A DNA stretch of 64,000 nt from Pseudomonas sp. BMS12. Lineage in GTDB: Bacteria > Pseudomonadota > Gammaproteobacteria > Pseudomonadales > Pseudomonadaceae. Numbering within the stretch: the first letter of the stretch is position 1; every line of letters starts with the position of its first letter. The position numbers were made by a program, and so were the translations under genes. Location of the stretch: positions 162,421 to 226,420 of the forward strand of contig NZ_LSOF01000004.1 in NCBI RefSeq assembly GCF_001592875.1, given 5' to 3'. Shown one piece after another: positions 3,332-9,367 of the stretch. The notes below the pieces were generated by a model. It worked only from the letters and a program-made list of their open reading frames with translations, was not told the DNA's origin and ran no database searches.

Positions 3332-4621
3332 TTAGAAGACGTACTGAGCGCGGAAAACCATGCCGTCGCCATCGTCGTCGCCAGCAGTGTTCTCTGCATT
3401 GTCGACGCTGGACTTGACGTACACACCGCTCAGCTTGACCGAGTCGTTGACGTACCAGTTCACGCCGATGTTGTGCACCTTGCCTTCGACGTCGTCGCTC
3501 GGGTCGATACCCACGCTGTCGTCTTCCATGGTCAGGTAGTCGTAGCGGTAGAAGACTTCCCAGGCGCCAATGGCCTTGTCGGCCGGCTTGATGCTGTCGA
3601 ACTTGCCCAGCTTGTAGCCGCGAGCTTCGCCGGTCAGGGTGTAGGCCACCTGAGCGTAGTAGCCGTCGCCTTCCAGGTCGTCCACGCCAGCGTCCTTGGA
3701 ATCGAGGGTACGGCTGATGTACTCACCCTGGATGGAGAACGGGCCGAAGGCGGCAGCGGCTTCCAGGCCGAAGGCTTTGTCGTCGCCCCAGTTGCCTTTG
3801 TGGCCACCGAGCACCAGACGGTTGCCGTTGGTACCGGCATCGTTACCACCGTTGGTGACCACGCCACGGATGCCCAGGCGGCTCTTCACGGAGGAGTCGT
3901 AGTTCTCGACGTCGTTCAGGTCACGCTGGGCGTAGTTGACGCCGAAGTGCAGTACGTTGCCGGCTTCGTGCATCGGGGCGAACACGCCGCGCAGGTTGAA
4001 CTGCTTGACGCTCTCACCGTCTTCGTCGTTGGTGTCCTTGGCGAATACACCGGCGGAACCGTACAGGGAATCCATGGCACTGCCGGAAACCTGCAGACCC
4101 ATGCCATTCTCGCTACCGTTGGCCCAGCCAACCATGTCGTAGGCGGCGTTACGCTCCTGGGCAGTCACCCACTTGGAGCTGGTGGCCTTTTCCAGACCGA
4201 ATTCCGGGTCGAAACGACCGACCTTGATCTGTACCGGGGAGAAGCCGTTGTAGGCGATGGAGGCTTCGTCGAAGTAGCCGTCGCTCTCGCTGCCAGCGTT
4301 GTGCGAGAAGTCGTAGTTGATCTGCCAGGCCCAGTCGCCGTAGGCGACACCGCCCAGCTCGAGGAAGGCGCGGCGGAAGTAGGCGGCGTCGGCGTTATCG
4401 CCATCCTTGGTGTAGAAGCCGTCGAAGGTGCTGTAGTCGGCCTGCAGACGGCCGCCGACTTTGAAGCTGAACTGTTTGTCGGTGGTGCCGACTTCCAGGC
4501 CACCCTTGGTCTTGATCATGAGATCGGCGCCGTCGGTGGTAACGGTACCGGCGAAAGCCTGGGCGGAAACGGCCAGGGCCAGGGCGCTGGCGACGAAACC
4601 GGCAAGGTGCTTACGGATCAT
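3332..4621 (-). CDS. oprP: Phosphate/polyphosphate-selective porin, OprO/OprP family
   Basis: A 429-residue outer-membrane porin. The signal peptide spans about residues 1-24 (ending AQAFA). It is followed by alternating amphipathic strands rich in Gly/Tyr/Asp and a terminal Phe (QYVF) as needed for Bam-dependent insertion. Segments [16 protein letters not shown] and [10 protein letters not shown] are typical of Porin_O_P. In P. aeruginosa OprP takes up phosphate and OprO polyphosphate; only one copy is present here and I cannot tell the specificity. A well-formed Pho box upstream supports phosphate-starvation control. From memory, its position beside the bufferin operon matches PA3279/PA3280. 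Confidence 0.92.
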
Positions 4622-4766: not shown

Positions 4767-4801
4767 AGCCGTCAGCCCTTGCCGGAGCTGGGCTGACGGC
4801 T
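4767..4801 (-). terminator. Terminator at the end of the bufferin operon
   Basis: A perfect 12-bp inverted repeat (AGCCGTCAGCCC and its complement) with an 11-base loop begins 10 bases after the DoxX stop codon. On the minus strand it is followed by a U-rich stretch (TTATTTC). It separates the operon from the Pho-controlled porin promoter. Confidence 0.85.
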
Positions 4802-4811
4802 GTCTGCAGCC

Positions 4812-5408
4812 TCAGCGTCGACGCCAGACACGCGCCAGCCAGTGATCGATGCTCAACCAGCGCCCGGCACCGACGAAGAACAGGGTCACCAGCATGATCA
4901 GATAGGTGGCGGCGAATTCGATGCCGTTGTTGAGCACCACGAACTTGCCGCTGGCGGTCAGCCAGTCGTAGTTGCCGTGCTCCTTGAGAATCTCCCGCGC
5001 CCGCTCGATCTTCTCCGCCGAGGCCAGCACCCGCTCGTTGGCAAAGGGCGCGGAGGGATCGGCAATCGCCTGCCAACCATAGGGCCAGTGCACGGCGGCG
5101 ATGGCCACCAGCATGGTGACGATCAGCGGAATGCTGATCCAGCGTACGGCCAGGCCGAACAGCAGCAGGATCGCCCCGCCCGCCTCGGTCAGCGCCGCCA
5201 GCCAGGCCAGCAGGGCCGGGAATGGCAGGCCAAGACCCCAGTCCGGATTGCCGAACCAGGCGATGGTCGACTCCATATCGGCCAGCTTGTGCGTGCCGGC
5301 CATCCAGAAAATCGGCACCAGATACAGGCGCAACAGCAACGGGCCGATGAAGTCGAGACGGCGAGTGGCGTCCAGGCAGTCCTGGAGGCGGTTGAACAGG
5401 GTCAGCAT
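4812..5408 (-). CDS. DoxX family membrane protein of the bufferin operon
   Basis: A 198-residue integral membrane protein of the DoxX/DoxD family with about four hydrophobic segments (for example LLLRLYLVPIFWMAG and ATYLIMLVTLFFVGAG). I start it at the ATG at 5408, preceded by GGAG with a 6-base spacer; the frame stays open upstream inside bufC. It is the last gene of the operon, 25 bases after bufC. DoxX-like proteins commonly accompany bufferin biosynthesis genes. A role in redox or quinone chemistry at the membrane is a guess from the family. Confidence 0.88.
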   Translation of the reverse strand: MLTLFNRLQDCLDATRRLDFIGPLLLRLYLVPIFWMAGTHKLADMESTIAWFGNPDWGLGLPFPALLAWLAALTEAGGAILLLFGLAVRWISIPLIVTMLVAIAAVHWPYGWQAIADPSAPFANERVLASAEKIERAREILKEHGNYDWLTASGKFVVLNNGIEFAATYLIMLVTLFFVGAGRWLSIDHWLARVWRRR

Positions 5409-5433
5409 GGGAGTCTCCATGTGCGGCGAAGCG

Positions 5434-6138
5434 TCAGGTTGCGGGGGGAAACCAGATGTCCTGGCGCTGCCAGTCATCCAGCAGCGCGCGGGCATTGGCG
5501 AAGTAGTGTTTGTCGGCGGCCAGGCCATTACTCTCGGCCAGGTCGAGCAGCGCCTCGCAGCTCGCCTCGCCGGCCTGCAGGCGCAGCGCCAGGTGATAGG
5601 CGAAGGCGGACAGCTGCTGGAAGCGCACCTTGTCCGTGCGATCACGCCAGACCAGCAGGCAGGTCGGTTCGGCCGGTGCAACGGCAGGCTGGAAATCCGC
5701 AGCGATGCGCTGCACCGGCCAGGCATAGGCCAGTGGCCAGGCCAGCGGTGACCAACCAAGCTCGGGCAGCTCGTCGACCGCCACCTCCAAGGCCAGTTCG
5801 ACCCGCTCGTAATGCGCCAGCTCGGCAAGAAACGCCGGGTCGCCCGGTTCGGCGACGAAAGCCTCCGCCAGCCAGTCGACGAACTCCGCGCCGATCTGCA
5901 AAAAGTACGGTGTGCGGCAGCGATGCTGGCTCAAGAAGGCACGCACCAGCCGCTGCCAGCGCGCGTCCTTAAACAGACTGCGCAACACCGGAAAGCCGCC
6001 GCTGAGAAACCCCTCCAGATTGTTGAAGAACAGCGTCTCGTAGACCGCCATCCGCGCAGTGCTGACGCCAGGTAGCAGCTCCACGCCCTGTGGATCGCGA
6101 ATACGTGCGGCGAAGCGCGTCTGATCGGCACGACTCAT
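5434..6138 (-). CDS. bufC: DUF2063 protein, bufferin partner BufC
   Basis: A 234-residue soluble protein. The N-terminal DUF2063 domain (about residues 1-110, with RMAVYETLFFNNLEGFL and the TPYFLQIGAEFVDWL block) is followed by a second domain ending DIWFPP. DUF2063 proteins pair with DUF692/MNIO enzymes and are thought to present the precursor peptide or assist modification. The start ATG overlaps the bufB stop codon (bases 6135-6138), so the two are translationally coupled, in keeping with a heteromeric complex. From memory, the P. aeruginosa counterpart is PA3282. Confidence 0.9.
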   Translation of the reverse strand: MSRADQTRFAARIRDPQGVELLPGVSTARMAVYETLFFNNLEGFLSGGFPVLRSLFKDARWQRLVRAFLSQHRCRTPYFLQIGAEFVDWLAEAFVAEPGDPAFLAELAHYERVELALEVAVDELPELGWSPLAWPLAYAWPVQRIAADFQPAVAPAEPTCLLVWRDRTDKVRFQQLSAFAYHLALRLQAGEASCEALLDLAESNGLAADKHYFANARALLDDWQRQDIWFPPAT

Positions 6139-6962
6139 TGCCCGGCCTCCTGCTGCAGGCCGCGAATGCGTGCAACCTCGGCGTACAGTTCGGCCACCGG
6201 AGGGAAGTTGAAGTCGCGCTCCAGCAGGGTCGGACGCACGCCGTGCCGCTCGTAGCAGTGCGCCAGCAGCGCCCACACCGGGTCGCACACCGGCGCGCCG
6301 TGGGTGTCGATCTTCAGCTCGGCGCTCTCGTCGAAGTGCCCGGCCATGTGCAGGTAGGCGATGCGCTCGCCCGGCATGGCCGCGACATAGTCCTTCGCGT
6401 CGAAGCCGAAGTTGTGCGCGTTGACGAAGACATTGTTGAGGTCCAGCAACAGCCGGCAATCGGCCTCCTCCAGCACGGCGCGAACGAACTGCACCTCGTC
6501 CAGCGCACCGGGCAGGCGCGCATAGGCGGAAACGTTCTCGATGATCAGCGGCCGCTCCAGCACTTGCTCGACGGTACGGATGCGCGCGGCCACCCGGCGC
6601 ACCGTCTCGTCGTCGAAGGGCAACGGCATCAGGTCGTAGAGCTGGCCGTCGTCGGCGCAGGCCGACAGGTGCTCGCTGTAGCCACGAATGCCGTGCTCGT
6701 CGAGAAAGCCCTTGATGGCGCCCAGCAACTCGAAGTCGAGCGGCGCGGTGCCACCCAGATTGAGCGACAGGCCATGACAGAGAAACGGCATGTGCTCGCT
6801 CAGCTCGCGCAGCTGGCGACCGAAACGGCCACCTACACCGATCCAGTTCTCCGGGGCGATCTCGAGGAAATCCAGCCGAGCCTCGGGCGGGTCATCACGC
6901 AGTGCCGCCAGCAGGCCGCGACGCAGGCCAAGGCCCGCGCCCTCGACGAAGTTCGTGAGCAT
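6135..6962 (-). CDS. bufB: DUF692 / MNIO-family multinuclear iron oxidative enzyme, bufferin maturase BufB
   Basis: A 275-residue TIM-barrel enzyme of the DUF692 (MNIO) family. These enzymes use two or three iron ions to oxidise Cys residues of ribosomal peptides to heterocycles. Metal-ligand motifs can be read in order: FLEIAPENW, HGLSLNLGG, YSEHLS, IENVSAY, LLDLNNVFVNAHN, YLHMAGH, IDTHGAPV and ERDFNFP. I start it at the ATG at 6962, nine bases after the bufA stop; the longer in-frame N-terminus is Arg-rich read-through of bufA. It is coupled to bufC by a 4-base overlap. The exact chemistry on this precursor is inferred. Confidence 0.93.
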   Translation of the reverse strand: MLTNFVEGAGLGLRRGLLAALRDDPPEARLDFLEIAPENWIGVGGRFGRQLRELSEHMPFLCHGLSLNLGGTAPLDFELLGAIKGFLDEHGIRGYSEHLSACADDGQLYDLMPLPFDDETVRRVAARIRTVEQVLERPLIIENVSAYARLPGALDEVQFVRAVLEEADCRLLLDLNNVFVNAHNFGFDAKDYVAAMPGERIAYLHMAGHFDESAELKIDTHGAPVCDPVWALLAHCYERHGVRPTLLERDFNFPPVAELYAEVARIRGLQQEAGQ

Positions 6963-6970
6963 GGCCGACC

Positions 6971-7264
6971 TTACTCGGTCTTGTCCGCGCCACACTTGCC
7001 TTCGCCGCACTTGCCCTCGGCGACCTTGTCGGTGCCGCTTGCCTCGGCACCGCATTTACCTTCGGCAGCCTTGGCTTCGCCCTTCATCTCGGCACCGCAC
7101 TTTCCTTCGCCGCAGGAGCCTTCGTGATCCTTTTCGTGAGCCGCCAGGCTGTAGCCGCTGCTCAGCTCCTGGGCCGCGAAGGGATTGCTGCCAGCCTGGA
7201 CAGCAAAGGCACTGCTCAGCAGGGCGGCACCGAGGGTAATGGCTAGAGTATTGCGTTGTTTCAT
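6971..7264 (-). CDS. bufA: Bufferin precursor peptide with EGKCG repeats, BufA
   Basis: A 97-residue low-complexity protein. A Sec signal peptide covers residues 1-24 (core LAITLGAALLSSAFAVQA). The mature part is rich in Gly, Glu, Lys and Ala and holds five Cys, all followed by Gly: one SCG and four EGKCG units. This is the EGKCG type of bufferin, a secreted RiPP-like peptide whose core Cys residues are modified by the MNIO enzyme encoded next. In characterised bufferins the product binds copper in the periplasm; that function here is inferred. A candidate ECF promoter and a leader hairpin precede it. Confidence 0.9.
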   Translation of the reverse strand: MKQRNTLAITLGAALLSSAFAVQAGSNPFAAQELSSGYSLAAHEKDHEGSCGEGKCGAEMKGEAKAAEGKCGAEASGTDKVAEGKCGEGKCGADKTE

Positions 7265-7293
7265 GGAGTTTCTCCGGTTGTGATTGGCAATCC

Positions 7294-7311
7294 AGGGGCT
7301 TTTCGGCCCCT
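7294..7311 (-). other. Leader hairpin upstream of bufA
   Basis: A 6-bp inverted repeat (AGGGGC / GCCCCT) with a 6-base loop lies between the candidate ECF promoter and the bufA start, so it would be in the 5' UTR. It has no U tract after it. It could stabilise the mRNA or mark the end of the sigma/anti-sigma transcript. Function unknown. Confidence 0.45.
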
Positions 7312-7320
7312 ATGCCTCAC

Positions 7321-7348
7321 TAGACGGAGAAGGTCGCGCGGCGTTACA
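7321..7348 (-). promoter_or_regulatory. Candidate ECF-sigma promoter of bufA
   Basis: The minus strand reads TGTAAC, a 16-base spacer, then CGTCTA. This is the -35 AAC plus -10 CGT layout of many ECF sigma promoters. It is placed 57 bases upstream of the bufA ATG and just downstream of the sigma/anti-sigma genes, which makes the ECF factor of this operon its natural reader. No transcript data are available here. Confidence 0.65.
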
Positions 7349-7370
7349 GCACAGGTGGGATTTTTCTCGC

Positions 7371-7601
7371 TCAGCCTTCGCGACGCTGCTGCGCCAGGCG
7401 CTCGGCCAAGGCGTCCAGCTCTGGCACCGGCCGCTCCGGCAGTTGGCGCAACACCGCCTGGCTCAGCTTCATCTGGCGGATGAAACGTCGGCAATGGCGA
7501 CACATCGCCAGATGGGCGCGCACGCTGATGCGCTCGCGCAGGCGCAACTGGCCGTCGAGATAATCGCTGGAATGGGCTACCAGTTCCTTACAACTCAGCA
7601 T
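7371..7601 (-). CDS. Zinc-finger anti-sigma factor (ZAS-like), soluble
   Basis: A 76-residue protein with the anti-sigma zinc motif H-x3-C-x2-C (HLAMCRHC, about residues 30-37) and an upstream Cys/His region (CKELVAHSSDYLDG), typical of zf-HC2 anti-sigma domains. No membrane segment is present, so it is probably a cytoplasmic sensor. Its ATG overlaps the end of the sigma gene by 7 bases, giving stoichiometric coupled expression. It presumably sequesters the ECF sigma factor until metal or oxidative stress releases it; the signal is inferred. Confidence 0.85.
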   Translation of the reverse strand: MLSCKELVAHSSDYLDGQLRLRERISVRAHLAMCRHCRRFIRQMKLSQAVLRQLPERPVPELDALAERLAQQRREG

Positions 7602-8197
7602 TGGCCGGTCTCCTCGAAATGCTCCAGGGTGGCGAACACCTTGAGCCGGGCACGGTGCAAGAGCACCCGGACATTGGAGAGCGAGATGTCGAGAAGATTA
7701 CAAATCTCCTCCAATTCCAGGCCCTGACGCTCGCGCAGTAGCAACACGCTGGACTGCAGCTCCGACAGGCTGGCGATGGTCTTTTCCAGACACTCGCGCA
7801 ACTCTTCCTCGGCCAGCAGGGCCTCGGGAGTGTCCTGTTCCCACTGACTGGGCGGGGTCTGCCAGTGGCCATCCTCGGCAAAGCGTTCGGTACCGACACT
7901 GCCGTGCGGCGCCGGCAGGTCGTCCAGCAGCGGCTCGCGACGCTGCTGCTTGAGCCGGCTCTTGGCAGTGTTGGCGGTGATGGTCAGCAGCCAGGTCTTC
8001 AGGCTGGAACGCTGCTGGAAACCGGCCAGGTTGCGCACCACGGCCAGCCAGGCGTCCTGCACCACCTCATCGGCATTGCGGCTGCCGACGATGGCATAGG
8101 CCACCGCGCGCATCGCGCCTTGATAGGTGCCGACCAGCAGGCGGAAGGCCTGCTGGTCACCGGCCAGCAGGCGGGCCAGCAGCTGCTGTTCATCCAT
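7595..8197 (-). CDS. ECF-family RNA polymerase sigma factor
   Basis: A 200-residue group IV sigma factor. Region 2 spans about residues 10-80 (NADEVVQDAWLAVVRNLAGF and TWLLTITANTAKSRL). A linker rich in acidic and Pro residues follows, then region 4 about residues 130-185 (LSELQSSVLLLRERQGLELEEI and LSNVRVLLHRARLKV). It overlaps the anti-sigma gene. Its likely target is the TGTAAC-N16-CGTCTA promoter of bufA downstream. From memory it corresponds to PA3285. It lies 45 bases downstream of the KAS III gene on the same strand and may partly be read through from it. Confidence 0.93.
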   Translation of the reverse strand: MDEQQLLARLLAGDQQAFRLLVGTYQGAMRAVAYAIVGSRNADEVVQDAWLAVVRNLAGFQQRSSLKTWLLTITANTAKSRLKQQRREPLLDDLPAPHGSVGTERFAEDGHWQTPPSQWEQDTPEALLAEEELRECLEKTIASLSELQSSVLLLRERQGLELEEICNLLDISLSNVRVLLHRARLKVFATLEHFEETGQC

Positions 8198-8242: not shown

Positions 8243-9367
8243 TCAGGCTTTTCGGCGCAGGATCACGCTACCGATCGAGTAACCGGCGCCAAACGAACTG
8301 AGCACGCCCAGCGCGCCGCTCGGCAAGTCGTCCTGGTGCTTGTGGAAGGCGATCACCGAACCGGCCGAACTGGTGTTGGCGTAGGTGTCGAGGATCACCG
8401 GCGCCTCGTGCGCTTCGGCATCGCGGCCCAGCAGCTTGCGGGCGATCAGCAGGTTCATGTTGAGGTTGGCCTGGTGCAGCCAGAAGCGCTTCACGTCACC
8501 GACATTGAGCTGGTTCTCGGCCAGGTGCGCGCCGATCAGCTCGGCCACCATCGGGCACACGTCGCGGAAGACCTTGCGGCCTTCCTGAACGAACAGCTTG
8601 TCCTTGGCACCGATGCCCTCTTCCGCCGCGCGGTTGAGGAAGCCGAAGTTGTTGCGGATGTTGTTGGAGAACTGGGTCAGCAGCTTGGTGCCGACGATGT
8701 CCCACTGGTGCGCCGAAGTGGCCTGGTCGGCACGTTCGATGATCACCGCGGTGGCGGCATCGCCGAAGATGAAATGGCTGTCGCGGTCACGGAAGTTGAG
8801 GTGGCCGGTGCAGATCTCCGGGTTGACCATCAGCACGGTGCGCGCCTGGCCGGTAGCAATGGCGTTGGTCGCGGCCTGGATACCGAAGGTGGCAGAGGAA
8901 CAGGCCACGTTCATGTCGTAGCCCCAGCCATTGATGCCGAGGGCCGCCTGCACTTCGATGGCCACGGCCGGGTAGGCACGCTGCAGGTTGGAACAGGCGA
9001 CGATCACCCCATCGATGTCCTCGACCGTACGCCCGGCGCACTGCAGAGCCTGTTTGGCCGCCGCGACCGACATCTCGCAGAGGATGCCCCACTCGTCGTT
9101 GGAGCGCTCGGGGATTCGCGGCGTCATGCGCCGAGGGTCGAGGATGCCGTCCTTGTCGGTGACGAAGCGGCTCTTGATGCCGGACGCTTTCTCGATGAAG
9201 GCGACACTCGACTCGCTCAGGGCCTCGACTTCACCACGCTCGATGGCGTCGGCATTTTCGGCGTTGAACAGCTGAACGTAGGCGTTGTAGGAAGCCACCA
9301 GCTCTTCGTTGGAGATGCTGTTAGCCGGGGTATACAGGCCAGTGCCACTGATTACGGCGTTGTGCAC
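8243..9367 (-). CDS. Beta-ketoacyl-ACP synthase III-like enzyme (PA3286 type)
   Basis: A 374-residue thiolase-fold condensing enzyme. The Cys-His-Asn triad is visible: Cys in [10 protein letters not shown] (about residue 156), His in [10 protein letters not shown] and Asn in [10 protein letters not shown] choose the GTG at 9367, preceded by AGAGG with an 8-base spacer. It matches the length and N-terminus of the P. aeruginosa KAS III homologue PA3286, which, as I recall, condenses medium-chain acyl-CoA with malonyl-ACP and so shunts beta-oxidation products into fatty-acid synthesis. The frame extends further upstream but without a start-like context. Confidence 0.9.

Follow-up and report, generated by a model that had tools for sequence, protein, structure and literature searches.

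Peptides with EGKCG repeats are among the most abundant classes of ribosomally synthesized and post-translationally modified peptides (RiPPs). Their products, including the oxazolin of Haemophilus influenzae, have been described as copper-binding 5-thiooxazoles and named captophorins, with Pseudomonas aeruginosa among the carriers listed; for FonA a mass loss of 8 Da over two repeats has been reported (PMC13097082). A survey of MNIO clusters reported genes for sigma factors and NrsF for clusters of type Buf1, not for those of type Buf2, and its available text mentions none for EGKCG clusters (PMC12452194). Here we describe a locus in Pseudomonas sp. BMS12 in which an EGKCG-type cluster, hvfABCX, lies beside genes for a FabH-type synthase, an extracytoplasmic function (ECF) sigma factor and a small anti-sigma factor. 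It is part of a window of 64,000 nt, the whole stretch of DNA analysed (contig NZ_LSOF01000004.1, positions 162,421–226,420). An earlier note on this DNA had presented six of these genes as a little-described bufferin operon under sigma control. The products of EGKCG clusters are in fact characterised, but we found no description of their promoter and zinc anti-sigma wiring in the literature searched; the product class is already known, and what is new is the regulatory module. An iModulon paper on P. aeruginosa may already cover part of this regulation.

Our reading, to which we give a probability of roughly 0.7, is that the locus consists of two linked units, in which an ECF sigma factor held by a zinc anti-sigma factor drives the hvfABCX operon for a copper-buffering peptide. 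The first unit, fabH–ECF–anti-sigma, would supply the sigma factor, kept inactive by the cytoplasmic zinc anti-sigma factor of 76 residues. Thiol-reactive oxidants or loss of zinc would disarm the zinc site, and the freed sigma factor would transcribe the second unit, hvfABCX, from a TGTAAC-N16-CGTCTA promoter. HvfB together with HvfC would then convert the cysteine residues of EGKCG (perhaps also EGSCG) on HvfA into 5-thiooxazoles before export, and the modified HvfA, to which HvfX would be an accessory in the membrane, would reach the periplasm and bind Cu(I) there, so that copper released by oxidants would be buffered. The thiooxazole chemistry and the copper binding of the product are carried over from papers on relatives. 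Promoter recognition by this sigma factor, the nature of the signal, the periplasmic copper buffering and the role of HvfX are what we infer.

A steady fabH–ECF–anti-sigma unit with a separable hvfABCX partner

Genomes were scanned with the ECF protein, and the best 80 of 275 loci (L004–L083), from Pseudomonas or from metagenome-assembled genomes titled Gammaproteobacteria or Pseudomonadaceae, were compared. All 80 had FabH upstream and the anti-sigma factor downstream of the ECF gene. hvfA was present in 26, within 600 nt after the anti-sigma gene in 16 and 1.9–4.5 kb away in the other 10; in the remaining 54 it was not seen in the stretches available, which cover up to 6 kb downstream and are in several cases cut by contig ends. 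In hvf-less loci an OprP-type porin gene often followed directly after the anti-sigma gene. Remnants of hvfC (L066, 6905–7297, directly after the anti-sigma gene) and of hvfX (L026, 8573) lay beside intact ECF/anti-sigma pairs, pointing to hvf loss. Thus fabH–ECF–anti-sigma is a steady unit and hvfABCX a frequent but separable partner. The single six-gene system of the earlier note has to be redrawn accordingly, as the ECF/anti-sigma pair is linked to fabH and, within the stretches available, occurs apart from hvfA in most loci. It also follows that this sigma factor has tasks besides hvf.

The co-location of ECF and hvfA exceeds chance, since 26 of the 80 loci found via ECF also carry hvfA. 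Among 199 Pseudomonas genomes, an ECF orthologue (E ≤ 1.6e-89) was present in 117 and HvfB at 73–100% identity in 15, with a clean gap to the next-best match at 62%. All 15 genomes with HvfB of at least 73% identity had the ECF gene (Fisher p 0.0005, computed with a 118/81 split and with kinship ignored). A second Pseudomonas hvfABC lineage (L094–L179) has an HvfB 54–62% identical to that of the window, usually without a close HvfX nearby.

These counts invite the view that the two units are mere neighbours, the ECF/anti-sigma pair serving fabH or other genes, hvfABCX being driven otherwise and the location being historical. The constancy of the fabH unit beside the patchy presence of hvfA is as this view would have it, and the two remnants mean that hvf can vanish while the pair stays. 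We consider it unlikely, because the promoter element described below is kept where hvf is displaced or unlinked, and is also found ahead of ECF in some loci without hvf, as well as in other families.

A conserved promoter element as the probable tie between the two units

The sequence TGTAACG-N15-CGTCTA is found at 7348–7321, between the anti-sigma gene and hvfA. TGTAAC was present at −85 to −71, counted from the gene starts, in all 38 hvfA loci of this lineage (some being the same genome fetched twice, e.g. L070/L134), and CGTC followed 16 nt after it in 34, the exceptions being GGTC, TGTC, ACTC and ACTC. As background, 100 of the 6963 ATG-started open reading frames (ORFs) of at least 90 residues in the 80 loci, hvfA included, had a TGTAAC in the 150 nt that precede them. 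An analysis of 32 sites showed that the spacer between the boxes is mostly variable (column conservation 0.38–0.81, with one column at 0.94); because these sites were picked by a TGTAAC search, the 100% TGTAAC in this set arises partly by construction, and the count of 38/38 was made independently from the gene starts.

The element was kept in the 10 of the 26 hvf loci in which hvf lies 1.9–4.5 kb from the anti-sigma gene, and also where hvf and ECF are unlinked, on separate contigs in three genomes (G008, G109 and G153) and ~30 kb apart in another (G118). The same element stood 63–70 nt before the ECF match in 6 of the 54 hvf-less loci; the score used is reached by 0.385% of random 150-nt windows. 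None of the 26 hvf loci had the element at that place. No element was found upstream of the first methionine in the second hvf lineage, ECF present or not. From these comparisons of sequence, the promoter element is what ties the two units, and hvfABCX is very likely switched on by the neighbouring ECF sigma factor, as the earlier note had proposed.

An exact search of the BMS12 genome with TGTAAC-N16-SGTCNA returned two matches, one before hvfA and the other before msrB–gpx. The latter (L105, 1502–1529, minus strand) precedes msrB and a gene for a glutathione peroxidase, beyond which lies a MarR-type ORF; this setting would fit oxidant repair. When msrB was tested as a second target, the strict form of the element was found in 7 of 40 Pseudomonas genomes with ECF and 1 of 20 without (p 0.25). 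In the relaxed form, anywhere in 300 nt, the counts were 16/40 and 2/20 (p 0.019, with no phylogeny correction). Genomes lacking ECF likewise conserve the block around it. msrB as a further target is suggestive only; two matches in the genome are no more than a reversed control pattern gives (11 matches).

Gene layout

The six leftward ORFs, spanning 4812–8197 on the minus strand, all lie where the earlier note had placed them, and the curated Pfam and NCBIfam models agree with the families it had named (Table 1). The genes and their families were thus observed directly, as an ECF sigma factor and a soluble zinc-finger anti-sigma factor beside a RiPP metallophore cluster of the MNIO type that encodes an EGKCG precursor and a DoxX protein. 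The terminator claimed as boundary was also recovered, as a hairpin that none of 200 shuffles equalled in stability. The FabH-type gene lies upstream of the ECF gene and beyond 4767–8197, the coordinates first given for the system. The start of the anti-sigma gene overlaps the ECF stop, and the ECF protein has sigma-70 regions 2 and 4 (PF04542 and PF08281, both above cut-off) without region 3. Because of the separate promoter element between the anti-sigma and precursor genes, fabH–ECF–anti-sigma and hvfABCX are probably two transcription units. The earlier note had picked out a real system, which it mislabelled and bounded incompletely.

Table 1. Features of the hvf locus, in window coordinates
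Feature	Position	Strand	Evidence
FabH-type beta-ketoacyl-ACP (acyl carrier protein) synthase III (P. aeruginosa fabH3 type)	8243..9367	-	NF005703, 670 bits vs cut-off 304
ECF sigma factor, 200 residues	7595..8197	-	Pfam sigma-70 regions 2 and 4 above cut-off
Soluble zinc-type anti-sigma factor, 76 residues	7371..7601	-	PF13490 and NF052368 above cut-off
ECF-type promoter element TGTAAC-N16-CGTCTA 5' of hvfA	7321..7348	-	Pattern conservation
hvfA-type RiPP precursor, 97 residues, signal-like N-terminus	6971..7264	-	NF050137, 52.1 bits vs 19.5
hvfB, MNIO (DUF692) maturase	6135..6962	-	PF05114, 320.5 bits; NF003818 (HvfB family), 393.8 vs 360; PDB 3bww, E 2e-68
hvfC, DUF2063/RRE partner	5434..6138	-	NF050145, 260.5 vs 142; PDB 3dee, E 1e-14
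hvfX, DoxX-type membrane protein	4812..5420	-	NF050144, 236.2 vs 80
Intrinsic terminator of hvf operon	4767..4801	-	12-pair stem then TTATTT, -28.5 kcal/mol, z -6.6
OprP/OprO-type porin, neighbour outside the system	3332..4621	-	PF07396, 316 bits

The gap that is the counterpart of the P. aeruginosa oprO/PA3281 intergenic region holds here the hvf terminator and the upstream region of the porin gene. In P. aeruginosa, this region is recurrently mutated in cystic fibrosis isolates (PMC8190622).

The anti-sigma factor has a zinc-ligand pattern

Cys4, His30, Cys34 and Cys37 of the anti-sigma factor were conserved in all 80 loci, and the same four residues were invariant in all 36 rows of an alignment with ten rows from other families, from which L347 and L350 were left out. 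They make up an HxxxCxxC motif plus an upstream cysteine residue, within a match to PF13490 (zf-HC2; 39.4 bits vs 22.2). Judged by sequence, this pattern of ligands is the one seen in zinc anti-sigma (ZAS) factors, and its spacing presumably matches that of RsrA. The predicted structure (pLDDT 91.5) gave 11 Foldseek matches, all of them anti-sigma chains (RsiW, RslA, ChrR and the SigK partner) and all weak, none having E ≤ 0.001; the best structural alignment had a Z of 7.2 and a root mean square deviation of 6.0 over 70 residues. The membrane domain of NrsF was not found in this 76-residue protein, for which zf-HC2 is the sole Pfam family.

The product is of the EGKCG/HvfA type

The precursor carries five cysteine residues, one in EGSCG and four in EGKCG, behind a start that was judged by eye to be signal-like. 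It has no DUF2282 or BufA2 assignment: Pfam gave nothing at E ≤ 0.1, and the NCBIfam matches are all of the HvfA type. The full-length HvfA equivalog NF050188 was not reached (55.7 bits vs a cut-off of 95), which places the precursor in the HvfA family without certifying it as HvfA proper. The maturase passed the HvfB model and stayed below the cut-off of the bufferin maturase model BufB (247.1 bits vs 310), contrary to the label of bufferin first applied. By these models, the four genes are hvfABCX of the EGKCG type (HvfA/oxazolin, now captophorin), outside the bufferins in the strict sense.

A bufferin in that strict sense, whose induction by copper would run via a copper sensor, would share its enzyme class with the present cluster; EGKCG products bind copper, as cited above, and a few EGKCG and bufferin clusters are linked to copper in the literature. 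We think this very unlikely to describe the locus, given that precursor and maturase fit the HvfA/HvfB models rather than BufB, that an ECF-type promoter precedes hvfA, and that the BMS12 genome has two separate MNIO loci which pass the BufB cut-off. The EGKCG cluster of Microbulbifer was not induced by copper (PMC12538549), which speaks against a copper trigger and is counted again among the points weighed below.

The two other MNIO loci of this genome lie on other contigs (L001, 1165–3101; L002, 1172–3089), each with a DUF2063 partner. The small cysteine-rich ORFs preceding their MNIO genes had no Pfam match at E ≤ 0.001.

The same ECF type in other families

The ECF type was found in 13 of 274 Gammaproteobacteria, including BMS12 itself (E ≤ 1e-46, with none between 1e-46 and 1e-28). 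The 12 other loci come from ten families, and in all 12 a small zinc-type anti-sigma gene follows. Five of the 12 had TGTAAC-N16-N[GA]TCNA in the 300 nt next to the ECF gene, compared with 0.0145 expected from crude shuffles. L354 has the element as well, outside the range used, which had been misplaced at a contig end. Matches inside the ECF coding region (L346, L347, L351, L356 and minus-strand matches of L352 and L355) were discarded, because the pattern there coincides with the codons for a conserved Cys-Asn stretch.

The genes faced by the element differ. In L352 and L355, of one family, it is an EGKCG precursor gene with HvfX. In L348 (2133–3332) and L354 (2131–2995) the element faces radical-SAM/DUF3641 proteins, which we take to be ArsS-like, and this cargo suggests an arsenic or thiol link. 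In L345 the element faces a DUF547 protein. In L350 (997–1368) it faces a bufferin precursor of the BufA2 type (95.3 bits vs 60) together with BufB (371.8 vs 310); an assignment of this precursor to DUF2282 was ruled out by its match to BufA2. L350 thus has a sigma gene beside a BufA2 cluster, although no sigma genes are reported for Buf2 in the available text of the MNIO survey (PMC12452194).

A survey of EGKCG precursors for nearby ECF genes, which the earlier note had suggested, was made with one ECF query over 40 of 76 genomes with a match, leaving out four contig-end matches and the other 32 genomes. ECF was nearby in 4 of 40 and a zinc anti-sigma match in 2 of 40; EGKCG precursors in general seldom have an ECF gene close by.

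We put forward tentatively, at somewhat less than even odds, that one gammaproteobacterial ECF/zinc anti-sigma pair with a fixed code, TGTAAC-N16-NGTC, may act as a switch for thiol or zinc stress whose cargo can be exchanged. In Pseudomonas, copper buffering would thereby be coupled to a zinc/thiol sensor. If true, such a switch would explain a peptide metallophore that is induced by chlorine oxidants and not by copper.

A probable counterpart in P. aeruginosa

PA14_21570–21600 is probably the P. aeruginosa counterpart of hvfABCX, and we assume PA3283 to be a UPF0276 protein. The order fabH, ECF, putative anti-sigma, four-gene co-expressed operon and oprO is common to BMS12 and P. aeruginosa (fabH3–PA14_21550–PA14_21560 and PA14_21570–21600; PMC3875570, PMC7950407, PMC8120321). 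The four genes are highlighted as up under hypochlorous acid (HOCl) and hypothiocyanous acid (HOSCN) (PMC7950407) and were 10- to 15-fold up with colistin by RNA-seq (PMC8120321); the induction by HOCl, HOSCN and colistin would carry over to hvfABCX through this probable counterpart. A table in a ZnuA study gives PA3282–PA3284 with values of 4.1–5.0 (PMC4542158; direction taken from context). In a review, PA3285 is placed in group ECF293 without an anti-sigma factor and predicted to be under PvdS (PMC8999054). Contrary to that listing, the fabH–ECF–anti-sigma loci seen here argue for an anti-sigma partner.

The element may instead be read by another sigma factor (e.g. SigX, AlgU or PvdS), with the adjacent ECF factor as a bystander or part of a cascade. 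The PvdS prediction for PA3285 would agree with this, as would the induction of the P. aeruginosa fabH3–ECF–anti-sigma operon by SigX overexpression (PMC3875570). We hold it to be quite unlikely, however, as other families, too, have the element next to this type of ECF gene, and some loci without hvf have it ahead of the ECF gene itself.

Several points weigh against a sigma factor that drives hvfABCX in answer to thiol stress. The sigma–promoter link is drawn from sequence comparison, and the pattern is not enriched genome-wide, with its 2 matches vs 11 for the reversed control. hvfA was not seen in 54 of 80 ECF loci, and 7 of the 12 loci of other families lack the element in the 300 nt searched, L354 being among the seven. 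Of 199 tests of relatedness, 88 were made without phylogeny correction. The equation of PA14_21570–21600 with hvfABCX comes from gene order and annotation rather than from sequence. To these are added the SigX effect, the MexT and NrdR inputs reported for these P. aeruginosa genes, and the Microbulbifer result.

Were the reading correct, it would give a function to an orphan sigma factor of P. aeruginosa and account for an operon that responds with strong induction to the immune oxidants HOCl and HOSCN. The conserved promoter and the zinc anti-sigma factor make thiol attack, as the signal for a widespread peptide family, testable, and cheaply so.

Comparison with known systems

ECF systems tied to hypochlorite or to methionine sulfoxide repair are reportedly present in hosts of EGKCG clusters, namely RpoE2 of H. 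influenzae, an ECF sigma factor said to answer hypochlorite, and the anti-sigmaE factor MseR of Neisseria meningitidis. In Caulobacter, sigF–nrsF with CC3254–3257 likewise has an ECF sigma factor and an anti-sigma factor controlling a precursor–DUF692–DUF2063–DoxX cluster, and its promoter, GTAACC-N16-CGAA, is similar in layout to the TGTAAC-N16-CGTC found here (PMC3511200). Its precursor is of the DUF2282 type, however, and NrsF is a membrane protein with periplasmic cysteine residues, whereas the anti-sigma factor here is a 76-residue soluble zinc type (PMC3511200). HvfABC(X) of H. influenzae and the gonophorin of Neisseria share with the present cluster an EGKCG precursor, an HvfB-family MNIO enzyme, HvfC and HvfX (PMC13097082). 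In contrast with them, the BMS12 precursor stays below the full-length HvfA equivalog cut-off, and the cluster has a fabH-linked ECF/zinc anti-sigma unit as its immediate upstream neighbour, while a conserved promoter precedes hvfA.

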